A DNA stretch of 64,000 bases, taken from the NCBI RefSeq assembly GCF_007752535.1, contig NZ_CP036426.1, forward strand, positions 620,001 to 684,000, in the 5' to 3' direction. Source of the DNA: Tautonia plasticadhaerens (GTDB lineage: Bacteria; Planctomycetota; Planctomycetia; Isosphaerales; Isosphaeraceae). Numbering within the stretch: the first letter of the stretch is position 1; each line of letters starts with the position of its first letter. The position numbers and the translations under genes were made by a program. Under the pieces are notes generated by a model. The model had not been told where the DNA came from, did not search any database, and worked only from the letters and a program-made list of their open reading frames with translations. Shown piece by piece: positions 10,318 through 32,922 of this stretch.

Positions 10318-12012
10318 TCAGAGGCCGCTGAGGTCGGCGGCCAGGACCCGGATGCCGCTGTCCAGGTTCAGCCGGTCGACGGCCTCCTGGGAGATGGTGA
10401 AGCTCATGCTCCGGTGCGGGGGGAGCGAGAAGCCGGCGAGCATCGAGGGGGTGACCTCCTCGCCCAGGTCCAGGCCGCTGAGGGCCAGGCCGTTGAGCAG
10501 CAGCGGCGAGGCGTTGTCGACCCGGAGCTTGTAGGTCTGCACGTCCTTGACCTTCTTGCCCTCGGTGACCTGGGCCCGGACGAGCCGGCCGAGGATGCCG
10601 GTGGCCAGCTCGACGGCCAGTCCCTGGGCCTCGGCGTCGTCAGCGATCGGCAGGGAGAACTTGCCCATCGGGGTCCAGGAGCGGGCCTCGGCGTCGCTGG
10701 CGTAGACCATCACCGTCGCCTCGCGGTCCCGGCCGCCGGCCGGGGCCTCGTTGAAGCGGACCAGGCAGGCGACGGACGGGCCCTCGGGGGAGGCCGGGGC
10801 GTCCAGCTCCACGTCAAGGCCGAGCATGTGGGTGCCGGTCAGGGTCTCGACCAGCCGCTGGGCGGCGGGATCGTCTCCCTCGAACTCCAGGTAGAGGACC
10901 GACGGGAGGGCCGGGACCAGGTCGCCGGCGGGCCGGGTGGTCCGCTCGACGAAGTCCCGTGCGAGGGTCAGCTCGTGGGTGTTGGCCCAGCGGCGGGAGA
11001 GCTGGCGGATCGTCGCCCAGTCGAGCTTGTAGATCAGGTTCCACATCACCAGCTGCGCCACCGACTCCGGCGCCTTCTCCTCGGCCAGCCTGCGGAAGGC
11101 CTCCCGGACCACCGGGTCGCGGCCGGCCTCCGCCTGGCCGATGTCGCCGACCTGCAGCGGCTCGCCCTCGGCGGGCAGCACGGCCCGGCCGGCCACCGGG
11201 GGTGAGAGGCTGATGGCGCGGGTGCGCAGGTCGCGGGTCTGGCCGGGGGCCAGGGCCGCCGAGGGGGGTCCGGTCGGGGGGATGGACATCATGCCGCCGC
11301 CCATCATGCCGCCACCCATGCCGCCACCCATGCCGCCCATGCCGCCGCCCATGCCACCCATGCCGCCGCCCATGCCGCCCATGCCGCCGCCCATCATGCC
11401 CATGCCGCCCATCATCAGGGAGGAGACGTCCCAGCTGTCGGTCTCGATGAGCTGCATGATCAGCATGCCCAGCATCATCATGCCCATCGACGCCGGCATG
11501 ACGCCGCCGCCACCGCCCATGCCGCCACCCATGCCGCCCATGCCGCCGCCGCCCATGCCGCCGCCGCCCATGCCGCCCATGCCGCCGCCGCCCATGCCGC
11601 CCATGCCGCCGCCGCCCATGCCGCCGCCCATGCCGCCCATGCCGCCGCCCATGCCGCCCATGCCGCCGAACTGGCCGGCGGCGCCCGAGGCGATCAGGCC
11701 GGGGGGCAGGACCACGCGGAGCGGGGCCCGGGTGTTATTGGTGACCGAGAGGGTCATGGCGCCCCCCTTGGCCCCCTCGGCCTTCAGGCCCACCCGGCCG
11801 CTGCGGAGCCCCTCGAAGAGGTCCACCAGCGGGATCTCGGGCTGCGCCTGTGCGTCGGCAGATGGGGACGCATGGGAGTCGGCCTCGGCGGCCGGGGCCG
11901 AGGGGGCCGCGGTGCCGGCGTCGTCGGTCTGGCCCGAAGCGATCGGCCCGAAGCCGAGGAGGCCGGCGGCCAGGGCGGCCGGGGAGAGCCAGGTCGTCAT
12001 GGTCGAACGCAT
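10318..12012 (-). CDS. Secreted Gly-Met-repeat protein, paralogue 2
   Basis: 564 residues from ATG 12012 (AAGGA 8 nt upstream), with a signal peptide (LSPAALAAGLLGFGPIASGQ). The architecture matches paralogue 1: acidic spacer, conserved block starting EIPLVDLFEGLRSG, two Gly-Met regions around a conserved Met-rich segment, then a long C-terminal part. The two differ mainly in the spacer and in the middle of the C-terminal part (residues near FVERTTRPAGDLVPALPSVL). By contrast about 168 bp (11669-11838 against 9540-9708) are identical at all positions, including third codon positions. This points to gene conversion or a very recent partial duplication. Function unknown. Confidence 0.72.
   Translation of the reverse strand: MRSTMTTWLSPAALAAGLLGFGPIASGQTDDAGTAAPSAPAAEADSHASPSADAQAQPEIPLVDLFEGLRSGRVGLKAEGAKGGAMTLSVTNNTRAPLRVVLPPGLIASGAAGQFGGMGGMGGGMGGMGGGMGGGGMGGMGGGGMGGMGGGGMGGGGMGGMGGGMGGGGGVMPASMGMMMLGMLIMQLIETDSWDVSSLMMGGMGMMGGGMGGMGGGMGGMGGGMGGMGGGMGGGMMGGGMMSIPPTGPPSAALAPGQTRDLRTRAISLSPPVAGRAVLPAEGEPLQVGDIGQAEAGRDPVVREAFRRLAEEKAPESVAQLVMWNLIYKLDWATIRQLSRRWANTHELTLARDFVERTTRPAGDLVPALPSVLYLEFEGDDPAAQRLVETLTGTHMLGLDVELDAPASPEGPSVACLVRFNEAPAGGRDREATVMVYASDAEARSWTPMGKFSLPIADDAEAQGLAVELATGILGRLVRAQVTEGKKVKDVQTYKLRVDNASPLLLNGLALSGLDLGEEVTPSMLAGFSLPPHRSMSFTISQEAVDRLNLDSGIRVLAADLSGL
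11286..11669. repeat. In-gene minisatellite encoding Gly-Met repeats (copy 2)
   Basis: Same unit types as in paralogue 1 but with different unit counts (blocks about 11286-11420 and 11510-11669), as expected from slippage. Confidence 0.85.
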
Positions 12013-12282
12013 GGGTCGAATCCTTTTCCTCGATCGTAGGGGATGAGTGGATCGTCGAGGCCGGGGTGCGTTGCCCGAACATGCGCCCCGGCCGGGGGTT
12101 AAGCGTGGGGCCGGGCGGTCGATCACCAGCATATCACGCCGTTCTCGGCCGCTCAAATTGACCCGTTTCGGGTCACCCGGGGCTCCCGGCCCTTCGACAA
12201 CAGGGACGGAGGGGTCTTCGCCGCTATTCGATGACCCGGTGCCGAATCCCGCGAACCTCCTGGGACGGGACGCGCCGTCCGG

Positions 12283-12288
12283 TACAAT
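12283..12288 (+). promoter_or_regulatory. -10 box of the threonine synthase-like gene
   Basis: TACAAT, 69 bp before ATG 12357, in the 344-bp divergent region 12013-12356. The -35 is not convincing (CCTGGG at 18 bp). The other half of the region holds the minus-strand promoter of the Gly-Met gene. Confidence 0.35.
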
Positions 12289-12356
12289 CCGCCCGAGCGG
12301 ATCCCGAAGGAAGGGCCGAGGAGCCACGGGACGCTCCCCGAAGTCCGGAGCCCCTC

Positions 12357-13625
12357 ATGCGATACGTCTCCCATCTGGCCTGCACCGTGTGCGGCGCGAC
12401 CTATCCGGGCGACCGGGCGATGAACCTCTGCGAGGCCGACGGCCGGCCGGTCCGGGTGGTGCTCGACCTCGATCGCCTGAAAGCCGAGCGCGGGCCCGAT
12501 CGGTTCTGGGATCCGGGCCGGAAGGATCTCTGGCGGTTCGGCGGCCTGCTGCCGCTGGACGTGACCGACCCGGACGACGCCCGGCACGTCGTCTCGCTCG
12601 GCGAGGGGGCGACGCCGAGCCTGCCCTATTCGCACCCGGTCGCCGCCCGGATCGGCTGCCGGCTGGAAGTAAAGGACGAGGGGAAGCCGCACCCCGGCTT
12701 CGGGGCCAACCCGACCCTGTCGTTCAAGGACCGGGGGATGGCCATGACCGTCTCGATGGCCCGGGCGCTCGGGCTGGGGAGGCTGGCCGTGCCGACGCAG
12801 GGGAACGCCGGGGATGCGCTGGCCACCTACGCGGTGGCGGCCGGGATCGAGGCGGTGGTGGCGATGTCCCCCGACACCGACCGGCCGGTGATGGGGAACG
12901 TCGCCGCCCTGGCCGCACTGCACCCGGGTCGGCTGACCTTCGAGCTGGTGCCGGGGACGATCATCGACTGCGGGGCGCGGATCAAGGACCACTACGTCCC
13001 GCTCGGGTACTTCAGCGTCGCCACCTTCCAGGAGCCCGGCTGGCGGACCGAGGGGAAGAAGACCCTCGGGCTGGAGATGGCCGAACCCGCCGGCGACCGC
13101 CTGGCCGATCGCCGCTGGGAGCCGCCCGACGTGATCGTCTATCCCACCGGGGGCGGGACCGGGGTGGTGGGCATGGCCAAGGGGTTCGACGAGCTGGAGG
13201 TGCTCGGGCTGATCGGCCCGGGGCGCCCCCGGTTCGTCTGCGTCCAGTCGTCGGCGACGGCCCCGCTGGTCCGGGCCTTCGAGGCCGGGGCGCCCGACAT
13301 CTCCCCCGAGCCCCCGGGGCGGACGATCGCCACTGGCCTGAACGTGGCCAGGAACGTCGGCCACGTCAACGTGCTGCGGATCATCCGCCAGACCGGCGGC
13401 TGCGCGATCGCCGTGGACGACGACCGCATCCGCCGGGTCCTGCGGGAGGAGTGGCGGGAGCGACGGTTCGGCTGGTCCCCGGAGGGGGCCGCGACGCTCG
13501 CCGTCCTGGAGGAACTGGCCGATCGCCGGATCATCGGCTCCGGGGATCGCGTCGTGCTGGTCAACACCGCCTCCCCCGAGAAGTACCTGCCGACGATCCG
13601 GGACTGCTTCGACGGCGGGCTCTGA
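12357..13625 (+). CDS. Threonine synthase-like PLP-dependent lyase
   Basis: 422 residues from ATG 12357, with GGAG 6 nt upstream. The N-terminus carries C9xxC12 and C25, a small zinc-ribbon-like start seen in some threonine synthases. The fold-type II PLP motif is NPTLSFKDRGM with Lys124 as the Schiff-base lysine. LGEGATPSLP is the substrate-loop motif, QGNAGDALATYA the phosphate-end motif and YPTGGGTGVVGMAKG the PLP-phosphate glycine loop. Threonine synthase makes threonine from O-phosphohomoserine. Some family members (for example cysteate synthase) use related substrates, so the exact reaction is inferred. Cytoplasmic; single-gene unit. Confidence 0.85.
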   Translation: MRYVSHLACTVCGATYPGDRAMNLCEADGRPVRVVLDLDRLKAERGPDRFWDPGRKDLWRFGGLLPLDVTDPDDARHVVSLGEGATPSLPYSHPVAARIGCRLEVKDEGKPHPGFGANPTLSFKDRGMAMTVSMARALGLGRLAVPTQGNAGDALATYAVAAGIEAVVAMSPDTDRPVMGNVAALAALHPGRLTFELVPGTIIDCGARIKDHYVPLGYFSVATFQEPGWRTEGKKTLGLEMAEPAGDRLADRRWEPPDVIVYPTGGGTGVVGMAKGFDELEVLGLIGPGRPRFVCVQSSATAPLVRAFEAGAPDISPEPPGRTIATGLNVARNVGHVNVLRIIRQTGGCAIAVDDDRIRRVLREEWRERRFGWSPEGAATLAVLEELADRRIIGSGDRVVLVNTASPEKYLPTIRDCFDGGL

Positions 13626-13855: not shown

Positions 13856-14292
13856 GGTGCGCCAATCCCGGATTCCCCAACTCCTTCTTCCGACTGGGAA
13901 TTCGAGGACGAAATGGGTTCGCTCCGCCGATCCCGAGCCGTTCCGTCGCACCCTCCCGGGAGGCGTCTCCGCCCGTCGCCCGGAGGATCCGGAACGAGGC
14001 GGTGAGGATGGGGGGCCGATCGGGCCCGGCGGGCGGGCGGTGCGCAGAGACCGAATCGCGGAACCTGTTTTCTGGTCGTGATTTCCACGATCGAAATGGG
14101 TTCGCTCCGTCGAGACCTTCGCGTCCCCGGCGGTCGGCTCGGGATGGGGTCGCCCCGAGTCCCCGGGGCGGCCGCAGGGTCGGGGGTCGAGCAGGGACCG
14201 GGTCGGGCCCGGGGGGCGGGCGGTGCGCCGACGACGAAATCCAGAATCCTTTTCTCGGATTGGAGTTGCGCCCGCGAAATGGGTTCGCTCCG
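13856..14292 (+). repeat. Tandem structured repeat array A (three 71-bp units, exact 183-bp period)
   Basis: Units: 13856-13926, 14039-14109, 14222-14292, each exactly 71 bp and separated by 112-bp linkers. Every unit starts GGTGCGC and ends GAAATGGGTTCGCTCCG. The 47-bp interiors differ in sequence and are A+T-richer than the surroundings, yet each can fold on itself. Examples: ATTCCC/GGGAAT in unit 1, AATCGCGGAA against TTCCACGATC in unit 2, AATCC/GGATT in unit 3. The linkers share only a G-rich end (GGGCCCGG-type) before the next unit. Most likely a structured RNA or a foldable DNA element; array B (32433-32922) is the same family. Confidence 0.8.
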
Positions 14293-14627: not shown

Positions 14628-14657
14628 TTGGCGAGGGGGCCGCGGCCGCCGTACACT
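14628..14657 (+). promoter_or_regulatory. Promoter of the prolyl oligopeptidase gene
   Basis: -35 TTGGCG (14628-14633), 18 bp, -10 TACACT (14652-14657), about 100 bp before ATG 14755 and downstream of repeat array A. Confidence 0.45.
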
Positions 14658-14754
14658 GGCTCGGTCAGTCGGACACGATCGGACGCGATCGGAGGGTCGA
14701 TCGTCCGCCCCGATCGATCGGCCGATCCGGCACACCAGGAGGCAGCGGCCCGCC

Positions 14755-16929
14755 ATGATTGGATCCCGACCGCCCCGAAGACGCCCCCGAACCCGAACCC
14801 TCGCGATCGCCGGAGCACTGCTCGCCATGACGTCCGGTCCCTCGCCCGCCGACGAGCCCCGCGACCCGATCGAGTACCCGGAGGCCCGCCGGGGGGACGT
14901 GGTCGACGACTATCACAGCACCGCCGTCGCCGACCCCTACCGCTGGATGGAGGACATCGACTCGGCCGAGACGAGGGCGTGGGTCGAGGCCCAGGTCGAG
15001 CTGTTCGAGTCGTACATCGAGGGCAACCCGGCCCGCAAACGCATCCAGGACCGGCTCACCCAGCTCTGGGATTACGAGAAATTCGGCGTCCCCTTCGAGG
15101 AAGGCGGCCGCTACTTCTACTCCTATAACAGCGGGCTGCAGAACCAGAACGTCTACTACACGACCGAGTCGCTCGGCGGCGACGCCCGGGTCCTGATCGA
15201 CCCGAACACCCTGAGCGAGGACGGCACCGTGGCCCTGGCCGGGCTCTCGCCGAACAAGGAGGGGTCGAGGCTGGCCTACGCCGTCTCCGACGCCGGCTCG
15301 GACTGGATGGTCTGGAAGGTCCGGGACGTGGAGTCGGGTGAGGACCTGGACGACGTCGTCCGCTGGAGCAAGTTCTCCGGCGCCGAGTGGACCCCCAACG
15401 GCGACGGCTTCTTCTACGGCCGGTTCCCCGAGCCGAAGGAGGGTGACGACCTGAAGGCGGCCAACTACTTCGCCAAGCTCTATTACCACGAACTCGGCAC
15501 CCCCCAGGAGCAGGACCGGCTCGTCTGGGAGGACCCCGAGCACAAGGACTGGCGGGCCGACGCCACCGTGACCGACGACGGCGCGTACCTGCTGTTCACG
15601 ATCGGCAAGGGGACGGACGACAAGTACCGCGTCCTCTCTCGCCCGCTGGCCGACGAGGGGGCCGAGCCGACGCACCTGGTCGGCGACTTCGACGCCGATT
15701 ACACCTTCATCGACAACGACGGCCCCCGGCTGTTCTTCCGGACGGACAAGGACGCGCCGCTCGGCAAGGTGATCGCCGTCGACGTGAACGACCCCGGGCC
15801 GGAGCACTGGGAGACGATCATCCCCGAGGCCGAGGAGACGCTGCTCGGCGTCAACCGGATCGGGGACAAGCTCTTCGCCCAGTACCTGAAGGACGCGAAG
15901 TCGCAGGTGAAGGTGTTCGACCTGGAGGGGACCTTCGAGCGCGAGGTGGAGTTCCCCGAGATCGGCACCGCCTCGGGCTTCGACGGCGACCGGGATTCGA
16001 CCGAGACCTTCTACGCCTTCTCCTCCTTCACCCGGCCGACGACGATCTACCGCTACGACCTCGCCAGCGGCGCGAGCAGCGTCTACAAGCGGCCCGAGGT
16101 CGGCTTCGACCCCGACGACTACGCGACCGAGCAGGTCTTCTACGAGAGCAAGGACGGGACCAAGGTCCCCATGTTCCTCTCGTACAAGAAGGGGACCGAG
16201 TTCGGCCCCGAGACGCCGACCCTGCTCTACGGCTACGGCGGGTTCAACATCCCGCTGACGCCGAGCTTCAGCGTCAGCCGGCTGGTCTGGATGGAGCTGG
16301 GGGGCGTCTACGCCGTGCCGAACCTCCGGGGCGGCGGCGAGTACGGCGAGGCCTGGCACAAGGCCGGCACCAAGCAGCAGAAGCAGAACGTCTTCGACGA
16401 CTTCATCGCCGCGGCCGAGTACCTGATCGGCGAGGGGAAGACCTCGACGCCGAAGCTGGCGATCCAGGGCCGCTCCAACGGCGGCCTGCTCGTCGGGGCC
16501 TGCATGACCCAGCGCCCGGACCTCTTCGGCGCGTGCCTGCCGGGCGTGGGGGTGCTGGACATGCTCCGGTTCCACACCTTCACGATCGGCTGGGCCTGGA
16601 CCGACGACTACGGCTCGTCCGAGGTCCCCGGGGAGTTCGAGGCGCTCTACGCCTACTCGCCCTATCACCGACTGGAAGCGGGGACCTGCTACCCGCCGAC
16701 CCTGATCGTGACCGCCGACCACGACGACCGGGTCTACCCGGCCCACAGCTTCAAGTTCGCCGCGGCGATGCAGGAGGCCCAGGGCTGCGACGAACCGATC
16801 CTGATCCGGATCGAGACGAGGGCCGGCCACGGCGCGGGCAAGCCGACGGCGAAGATCATCGAGGAGGCCGCCGACGAGATGGCCTTCGTGGTCGAGGCGA
16901 TCGGGTTCCCGATGCCCGAGGGCGAGTGA
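14755..16929 (+). CDS. Prolyl oligopeptidase (S9A), exported
   Basis: 724 residues from ATG 14755; AGGAGG lies at 14737-14742. An Arg-rich start followed by [19 protein letters not shown] looks like a signal peptide. The N-terminal [20 protein letters not shown] is typical of S9A, followed by a seven-bladed propeller. The C-terminal alpha/beta-hydrolase has [14 protein letters not shown], then [16 protein letters not shown], Ser574 in GRSNGG, an Asp in DHDDRV and His692 in GHGAGK. The enzyme cleaves short peptides after proline. Length is normal for the family (about 680-720). Transcribed alone. Confidence 0.95.
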
Positions 16930-32432: not shown

Positions 32433-32922
32433 CGGAGCGAACCCATTTCGGATTCCCGAACGCTCGAAACTGCAAGCGATTATGGCCGATGCGAGGGGCA
32501 TCCCATCGGCGCACCGATCCCGGATCTCCCGCGTCCGGGCCGATGCGAGGCGAGGCGTCGGGTGGCCGGAATTGCCCGGCATGGCTCGTATCCCCTGGCC
32601 GATCGGTCTTCGGCCCCCGGGTTCGCCGGATCTCCGGTGCGCCGCGCGGAGCGAACCCATTTCAATTCGAAGAAACTCTTTCCCGTGATTGGGTTGCGGA
32701 AAATCCCCTGGGCGTGCGATTGGCGCACCGACCCGCTCCCGGCCCTCGACAGGTCCGCGCCCCCGCGCCTCGCCTACCCGACCGGCACCCGGTCGATCAC
32801 CCCCGGCCGGACCGGAGCGGGCCGGCCCGGGGGGTTCGCGCGGACCGAACCCATTTCGGATCCCGGAATGTGTGCTCGATTCTCAAGTTGCGCCGAATTC
32901 CGGGGCGCACCGCGAGCGCACC
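32433..32922 (-). repeat. Tandem structured repeat array B (three units)
   Basis: Same family as array A, on the minus strand. Units: 32433-32515 and 32647-32729 (83 bp each, 214 bp apart at both boxes), and 32841-32911 (71 bp, or 82 bp if the extra GGTGCGC at 32916-32922 is used). All begin GGTGCGC. Two end GAAATGGGTTCGCTCCG; the third ends GAAATGGGTTCGGTCCG. Interiors differ but fold: CCCGGAAT/ATTCCGGG (8 bp, perfect) in the third, TTTCC/GGAAA in the second, CGATG/CATCG and CGCT/AGCG in the first. The second and third units have in-frame stops in the frame that is open in array A, so they are not conserved coding sequence. Confidence 0.8.

Follow-up and report, generated by a model that had tools for sequence, protein, structure and literature searches.

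The described systems closest to the repeated element of Tautonia plasticadhaerens include: (i) the Noc/SlmA nucleoid-occlusion sites, which are depleted at the terminus, (ii) looping operators of the lac/araC type, (iii) REP repeats with their RAYT genes, and (iv) the pac sites and terminase small subunits (TerS) of SPP1/SF6. The element resembles the Noc/SlmA sites in being dispersed at dozens of places, denser on the origin side and with a large gap farther off, while its clustered three-module units of ~70-120 bp differ from one short palindrome and are without a link to a ParB-like or TetR-like protein. With the lac/araC-type operators it shares face-of-helix spacing, for which the sections of PMC1762422 used here give a period of ~11 bp in vivo, and it departs from them in its more than 100 genomic sites and in having no promoter-like orientation. 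Similarly to REP/RAYT, as portrayed in the excerpts of PMC2817692 and PMC3116915 that were available, the element exists in more than 100 dispersed, clustered intergenic copies and is borne by a multicopy gene whose number is tracked by the number of repeats (in this genus). Unlike the REP/RAYT systems of those excerpts, the units are not short hairpin palindromes (they have fewer symmetric pairs than expected and, in six units, shuffle-like folds), the gene is unrelated to the IS200/IS605 tyrosine transposases by Pfam, the unit is antisense and 3' only rather than a REP on each side (box C occurs once, at the 3' end, at each of 12 close-copy loci), and three modules lie on a helical-turn lattice with several positions common to species. 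As neither short hairpin palindromes, nor a gene of that transposase family, nor flanks on both sides were found, the element is not filed under REP/RAYT.

The likeness to pac/TerS is one of anatomy. According to the portions of PMC4737164 drawn on here, terminase small subunits display their DNA-binding domains in a ring, and the SF6/SPP1 authors propose that a bendable pac DNA of ~100 bp is selected by wrapping. Both sites are of ~100 bp, combine repeated boxes with AT-rich DNA and adjoin the gene of a presumed binding protein, and an N-terminal module is common to the gene family studied here and some phage terminase small subunits. By contrast, the units of T. plasticadhaerens are dispersed in ~64 clusters, the unit lies at the 3' end of the gene whereas SPP1 pac spans the start of its gene (PMC4737164, same portions), and the homology stops at the N-terminus. 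On the best reading, the unit and its gene family would be like REP/RAYT in gene-repeat pairing and like pac/TerS in anatomy.

The window, the whole 64-kb stretch of DNA that was analysed, includes two arrays of the element (Table 1). Array A is intergenic, as the initial annotation held, and its GGTGCGC boxes do recur at the exact spacing claimed (183 and 183 bp); each of its three units is 71 bp and ends in an exact GAAATGGGTTCGCTCCG, with the core ending 9 bp before the TGG in 3/3 units. The second array (B), of three units on the minus strand (32433-32922), is recognized by two matches to the gapped pattern and a 17-mer with one mismatch, and its third unit carries box A twice in tandem, at a distance of 11 bp (32922-32916, 32911-32905). 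The gapped pattern has 5 matches in the window and 0 in 100 shuffles. Array A was considered as a regulator of the prolyl-oligopeptidase gene and rejected, as box C is absent from the 12-kb T. sociabilis locus around the relative of this gene and the array is not common to both species. Within the same intergenic region, the stretch at 14640-14755, around CCGTACACTGGC and 5' of the prolyl-oligopeptidase gene, aligns best with T. sociabilis and is a likely promoter. A long open frame with glycine/methionine repeats (GGMGGMGG) at 10318-12327 adjoins the PLP-enzyme gene.

Table 1. Features of arrays A and B and of the genes flanking array A (window coordinates)
Feature	Coordinates	Strand	Basis
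Array A unit 1 (box A to box C end)	13856..13926	+	
Array A unit 2	14039..14109	+	
Array A unit 3	14222..14292	+	
Box A, array A units 1/2/3 (GGTGCGC)	13856..13862, 14039-14045, 14222-14228	+	
28-bp AT-rich dyad core, array A units 1/2/3	13877..13904, 14060-14087, 14243-14270	+	motif search, 123 units
Box C, array A units 1/2/3 (GAAATGGGTTCGCTCCG)	13910..13926, 14093-14109, 14276-14292	+	
Array B unit 1, 83 bp	32433..32515	-	
Array B unit 2, 83 bp, then inverted box A GGCGCACC	32647..32729	-	
Array B unit 3, box C with one mismatch	32841..32922	-	
PLP-dependent enzyme gene (PF00291), upstream of array A	12357..13625	+	
Prolyl oligopeptidase gene (PF02897, PF00326), downstream of array A	14755..16929	+	

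Six contigs make up the genome (9,395,224 bases), and 8.67 Mb of it belong to the largest; strain ElP is given a chromosome plus five plasmids in the part of PMC7716859 consulted. Further copies, which the initial annotation proposed to seek genome-wide, are abundant: the exact 16-mer occurs 49 times (24 forward, 25 reverse) and the 17-mer with up to 2 mismatches at 142 sites, with 0 for the reversed control in each case, and at least 125 units are spread over 64 clusters (21 with one unit, 26 with two, 16 with three and 1 with four). The units were gathered from 62 regions (675 kb) around clusters, picked among the sites listed from those with 0-1 mismatch (a few with 2), so that the unit set stands without weaker clusters such as C1:90126, 303233 and 404552. 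The view that the element is real, selected and multicopy is thereby upheld. In keeping with the first description, no described counterpart was met: Rfam gives 0 matches at gathering score over the whole window, a match to a known transposon end did not turn up either, and searches of an open-access library listed no description of such a three-module element.

Motif searches without preset spacing resolve each unit into three modules: box A (CGGTGCGCC), in which the GGTGCGC columns are 98-99% conserved genome-wide; a 28-bp, AT-rich, dyad-symmetric core (AAnYCnTT-N7-AAnGRnTT); and box C (AAATGGSTTCGNTCCG). Many units carry more boxes than these. The inverse of box A, GCGCACC, lies 3' of box C in 54/125 units and starts 12-20 bp from the T of TGG in all but one of these (53/54), 19/28 extra TGGSTTCG boxes found by pattern are 22 or 31-33 bp downstream, and adjacent boxes A are 10-12 bp apart in 31/45 box-to-box intervals. 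Box A shares 7 bases with E. coli dif, and the dyad of the core might hint at a tyrosine-recombinase core of dif-like layout (11-6-11). The boxes of an integron attC were not seen by eye and this assignment was rejected. In two regions, C1:2786487-2786655 (L117) and C1:2756911-2757010 (L116), strings of TGGSTTCG at 24-44 bp steps extend 3' of a single box C.

The modules are spaced by whole turns of the double helix. From the core to TGG the distance is 9-11 bp in 76 units, 20-22 in 29, 32 in 17 and 18 in 1 (n=123), and from box A to TGG it is 58-60, 69-71, 80-82, 92-94, 104 or 116 bp for 161/164 boxes; GGTGCGC lies at a lattice distance in 121/123 units. The fitted periods are 11.06 bp for core to TGG (95% bootstrap 10.95-11.14, R 0.954), 11.34 bp for box A to TGG (bootstrap 11.25-11.41, R 0.905) and 11.27 bp for box A to core (bootstrap 11.06-11.39, R 0.934), based on 123/125 units, two having been dropped for another motif within 50 bp upstream. 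All three bootstrap ranges exclude 10.5 bp; as R for core to TGG is still high at that period (0.926), the phasing is firmer than the exact period. Since cluster members, gene copies and the loci of two congeners (G040 and G041) are related, the rows are not fully independent; with a single unit per cluster the periods are 11.09, 11.34 and 11.27 bp and R is almost unchanged. The same spacing classes recur in three other genomes of the genus, among 33/54 motif matches (core score >6, no other motif within 60 bp upstream; 27/33 with box A), where the core gives R 0.92 and 38 boxes A give R 0.84 at 11.3 bp and 0.43 at 10.5. Adjacent units also tend to be in phase (n=57, period 11.10, R 0.553; null 99% 0.374, maximum 0.502 in 2000 simulations). 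If each cluster contributes a single spacing (n=41), R is 0.506 against a null 99% of 0.421 and a maximum of 0.548 in 2000 simulations, so that the phasing between units is weaker than that within units.

The conserved trait is the module sequence together with whole-turn spacing, a DNA-level signature. In the portions of PMC1762422 considered, LacR loops in vivo are fitted with helical repeats of 11.08 and 11.60 bp/turn, which exceed the 10.5 of free DNA because DNA is unwound in cells, and the ~11.1-11.3 bp lattice matches this twist of DNA in living cells. Phase that is kept across variable spacers suggests that the double helix itself is read, and the lattice is predicted to place proteins on one face of the DNA, while phasing alone does not name the bound protein.

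In the initial annotation, the units were taken for hairpins whose pairing arms are retained by compensatory change. This part of the description failed. When covariation was judged by permutation tests on the core columns, none was significant, and symmetric core positions pair less than independence predicts: 826 Watson-Crick pairs over 18 position pairs versus 905.3 expected for independent columns, and 583 over 12 position pairs versus 640.7 (sd 15.8), with 0/2000 permutations as low. One unit per cluster gives 300 versus 335.1 (sd 11.2), again with 0/2000 permutations as low. Compensatory change would have shifted these counts the other way. Folding of the six window units is no better than that of shuffles (z -1.45 to +1.12). 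The missing covariation removes the hairpin claim and leaves the element itself standing, which is real and DNA-level. A strong half-site could tolerate a weak partner; as the correlation of half-site scores is only -0.15, this reading is not pressed.

Most clusters are intergenic (53/64), while ~75% of the sequence is called coding by a retrained custom gene caller; the remaining 11/64 overlap a single gene family. Around the 53 intergenic clusters, the downstream gene is on the same strand in 27 cases and the upstream gene in 21, a distribution with no clear orientation bias, and a role as promoter or terminator of the neighbours was rejected on this ground. Units are also borne by contigs C2 and C5. 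On the chromosome, 33/47 intergenic clusters lie in the dnaA-side half (p 0.004), where the origin is set by dnaA at C1:436 only, GC skew having given no clear origin, and the largest gap between clusters, at 4.66-6.35 Mb, has p 0.0003 for the 58 chromosomal clusters and 0.0018 for the 47 intergenic ones. Four clusters at low coordinates (48731, 443170, 1038831 and 1239018) were found only via position-biased lists of sites and are therefore left out of these statistics; with them, the half-chromosome test gives 37/51 (p 0.0009).

Across 45 genomes of the family, the 16-mer with one mismatch counts 124 sites here, 9, 12 and 21 in three congeners, and 0-4 elsewhere. The gapped pattern, applied to 392 genomes of the phylum, matches 71 times here, 7 times in one other family member (G022) and singly in 15 others, the single matches being about as frequent as those of the reversed control. 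Some positions are shared between species. From G040 (8) and G041 (9), 11/17 unit regions align with six unit-bearing regions here (L097, L101, L110, L111, L133 and L135), and in every one of them units lie amid or next to the aligned segments; L110 is gene-linked, and the other five positions are intergenic clusters. As the regions searched amount to ~7% of the genome, six shared positions are far above chance. Seven G040-G041 region pairs also align mutually.

When cluster regions of different species were aligned, a gene was seen to recur next to solitary units of the longest spacing: 11/17 units with a core spacing of 32 adjoin this multicopy gene, here termed STGPRT, the protein of which starts MTTPSEKQLAANRRNALRSTGPRTAEGKLRSRRNGLVHGL. 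The query protein has no Pfam match and, in NCBIfam, only a match at 0.069. Among 20 diverse family members, Pfam gives two matches, one member each, of which the one with a shown cut-off falls below it; a Pfam transposase family is found neither in the query protein nor in these 20. A relative on an IMG/VR contig (L384) has an IS110 match below the cut-off, and a sequence search of solved structures returned nothing beyond E 0.5.

The genome has 28 matches to the gene, 12 of them close (at least 424 bits, 62-100% identity) and 16 distant (at most 154 bits). In all 12 close copies an antisense box C lies at the 3' end, with a box A exactly 104 bp from it (the core could be placed in 11/12, the region of the twelfth, L291, being outside that set). 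None of the 16 distant copies has both boxes; three have the TGGSTTCGATTCG box, and a fourth has TGGCTTCGTTCGGC ~570 bp away. In the congeners, close copies of G040 and G041 have both boxes, at 104 and 106, and that of G042 (L311) has box C and no exact box A. Across the genus, close copies and sites number 12/124, 7/21, 3/12 and 1/9, where close means at least 200 bits and some copies are contig-end fragments.

The gene family occurs in 34/45 genomes searched of the Isosphaeraceae family, with at least 37 matches in the richest. TGGSTTCG is antisense in the 3' 700 bp of 41/53 family copies and sense in 2, and in 5' control windows of the same copies it is antisense in 1 and sense in 4. These copies were found by pattern through the N-terminal motif, with one duplicate locus dropped and some windows ending at locus ends; they include 15/28 copies of this genome (11/12 close, 4 distant), and L288 was missed though unit-bearing. 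With 300 permuted 8-mer motif pairs the mean is 1.4 and the maximum 16 of 53, the latter presumably because gene copies are related. In 18/20 copies fetched from another genus (G011), the antisense motif precedes the stop by 72-264 bp; among copies from neither this genus nor G011 the count is 8/15, and 12/53 parsed copies are without the motif. The gene-borne motif of G011 is part of the coding sequence and for the most part keeps to one codon phase, so that the family-wide link could in part be due to coding constraint. In L378, a relative from an IMG/VR contig (31% identity), the antisense motif occurs twice, 223 and 144 bp ahead of the stop. Lineages differ, as seen in the uneven counts of the TGGSTTCGTTCKGC variant: 51 in G011 and 55 in G007, 0 and 1 in the gene-less G004 and G005, and 0 in the gene-rich G043 and G026. 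Dispersal into intergenic arrays is shown for this genus only.

Upstream of the multicopy gene, a conserved 5' leader is seen in the seven copies listed from L281-L287 (GAAAAAGTG.CTGCCGGGGCCCG...CTGATCTTAAGGGTGTACGG). In G011, several leaders among L338-L357 have palindromes, such as CGCGCGACGTCGCGCG, and TTTGACAATTCGG-like stretches follow several stops. A tandem array of the motif in the G011 genome, with seventeen TGGGTTCGTTCGGC copies of which sixteen are at exact 24-bp steps, occupies G011:C1:3705558-3706075. Motif copies at 51-bp steps occur in G007 (L315) and G044 (L054); in L315 the 3' end of a copy of the multicopy gene bears them.

The N-terminus of the family is shared with phage proteins. 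A plain query of a viral collection with the multicopy gene finds no relative; an alignment query finds 39 loci, most of which match the first ~40 residues only, and a phage origin of the gene was considered and not adopted. One of the phage proteins (L413) matches PHROG terminase small subunit families at 1.6e-8, 4.8e-7 and 2.2e-4, a second (L406) matches one such PHROG weakly (6.1e-4), and the others tested match families of unknown function or none; 20 bacterial family members give no terminase match in PHROG. In hhalign, the bacterial family aligns with five phage terminase-small-subunit-like proteins at 97.8% probability (E 8.9e-13, 71 columns) and with twelve other phage proteins at 99.1% over 44 columns. 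The likeness to terminase small subunits is confined to the N-terminal 40-70 residues, and the module common to the family and some of these subunits reads STGPKTxEGKxRSxxNAxKHGL.

The unit is, with reasonable probability, a putative one-face site for a multi-subunit DNA-binding assembly, with the STGPRT product as the likeliest partner. At each unit, such an assembly would contact one face of double-stranded DNA at three modules: CGGTGCGCC (box A), present once or several times; the dyad core, rich in AT and probably easy to bend; and AAATGGSTTCGNTCCG (box C), after which an inverted box A or more TTGGSTTCG boxes often follow. The modules would slide relative to each other only by whole helical turns (~11.1-11.3 bp), and since the phase tends to extend to adjacent units, the 2-4 units of a cluster may together form one wrapped or looped nucleoprotein structure of ~200-700 bp. 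The STGPRT gene, with its antisense boxes C and A at the 3' end, is strongly indicated as the partner of the unit; we infer that the family product is the cognate protein. A ring or filament that reads one slot per turn would explain boxes in any ~11-bp slot. Candidate roles include chromosome architecture, regulation or self-propagation of the gene family.

A bolder form of this proposal, held tentatively, is that a phage-packaging-type protein was domesticated and amplified in planctomycetes and, with its pac-like helical code, makes up a nucleosome-like system that wraps the chromosome. Identical DNA-binding domains, arranged in a ring or filament, would each take one ~11.2-bp slot per turn, and a gene that bears its own site may allow the pair to spread and co-evolve by lineage.

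Of the alternatives, operator arrays of some regulator other than the STGPRT protein appear rather unlikely, even though they would account for clusters of 2-4 units that are intergenic, coherent in orientation and in part found next to the same genes in other species, and cooperative regulators are typically helically phased. Such arrays are at odds with the near-even orientation of neighbouring genes (27/53 and 21/53) and with the T. sociabilis prolyl-oligopeptidase-relative locus, which is without box C, and they leave the 12/12 gene link unexplained.

It is improbable that the unit is a non-autonomous mobile repeat of the REP/RAYT logic, in which the multicopy gene would encode an unrecognised mobilising enzyme that disperses its 3' unit. 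The pairing of box C and box A with 12/12 close copies, the matches per genome (at least 37 at most) and the tracking of close copies by site number within the genus are in line with such a repeat, as is the targeting of the motif by an insertion sequence. In G042, this insertion sequence has 18 identical 110-base ends (at contig ends L068, L073-L086 and L358-L377) and abuts TGGGTTCG at 14 of the 16 distinct ends listed; of the remaining two, one has a mismatch and one abuts another IS copy. A related insertion sequence in G022 abuts TGGGTTCG at 3/3 (L364, the place of L045, L359 and L362). Judged by where their ends fall, the G042/G022 elements target the box C motif; as the contigs mostly end within the element, the transposase was not recovered. 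The use of the repeat as an insertion target is a further likeness to REP/RAYT, where ISPpu9 reportedly sits in REPs. Against mobility stand the six cluster positions common to different species, which lower its probability, the absence of a Pfam transposase family in the 20 members scanned, the presence of the unit on only one side of the gene, and intergenic copies that diverge strongly inside yet stay in phase; an empty site or target duplication is not shown.

Very little speaks for the 3' motif as a mere conserved coding stretch (RSEPIS-/QNEP-like peptides) whose intergenic copies are decayed gene tails. Most G011 copies have the motif in one codon phase, as this would predict, but three show it in another phase too, tblastn (E up to 1e-3) finds the gene only in the 11 gene-linked of the 62 regions searched, and intergenic units hold three modules in phase without a frame. 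A selected hairpin or small RNA, in which the unit would be transcribed and held by compensatory change, is hardly credible and was rejected: the dyad-symmetric core consensus, the GCGCACC after box C in 54/125 units and the sharp, repeated unit ends would fit it, while symmetric positions that pair below independence, shuffle-like folds in the six window units, the lack of an Rfam match at gathering scores and spacing quantised in double-helix turns, inter-unit spacers included, all count against it.

With the one-face site as the preferred reading, the DNA of T. plasticadhaerens bears the imprint of a helical repeat of ~11.2 bp at more than 100 loci, which points to a large nucleoprotein assembly. 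The cognate-looking DNA site provides a handle on a multicopy protein family that has no Pfam model, and the N-terminal module shared with terminase small subunits suggests a route by which phage DNA-recognition modules may enter bacterial chromosome biology.
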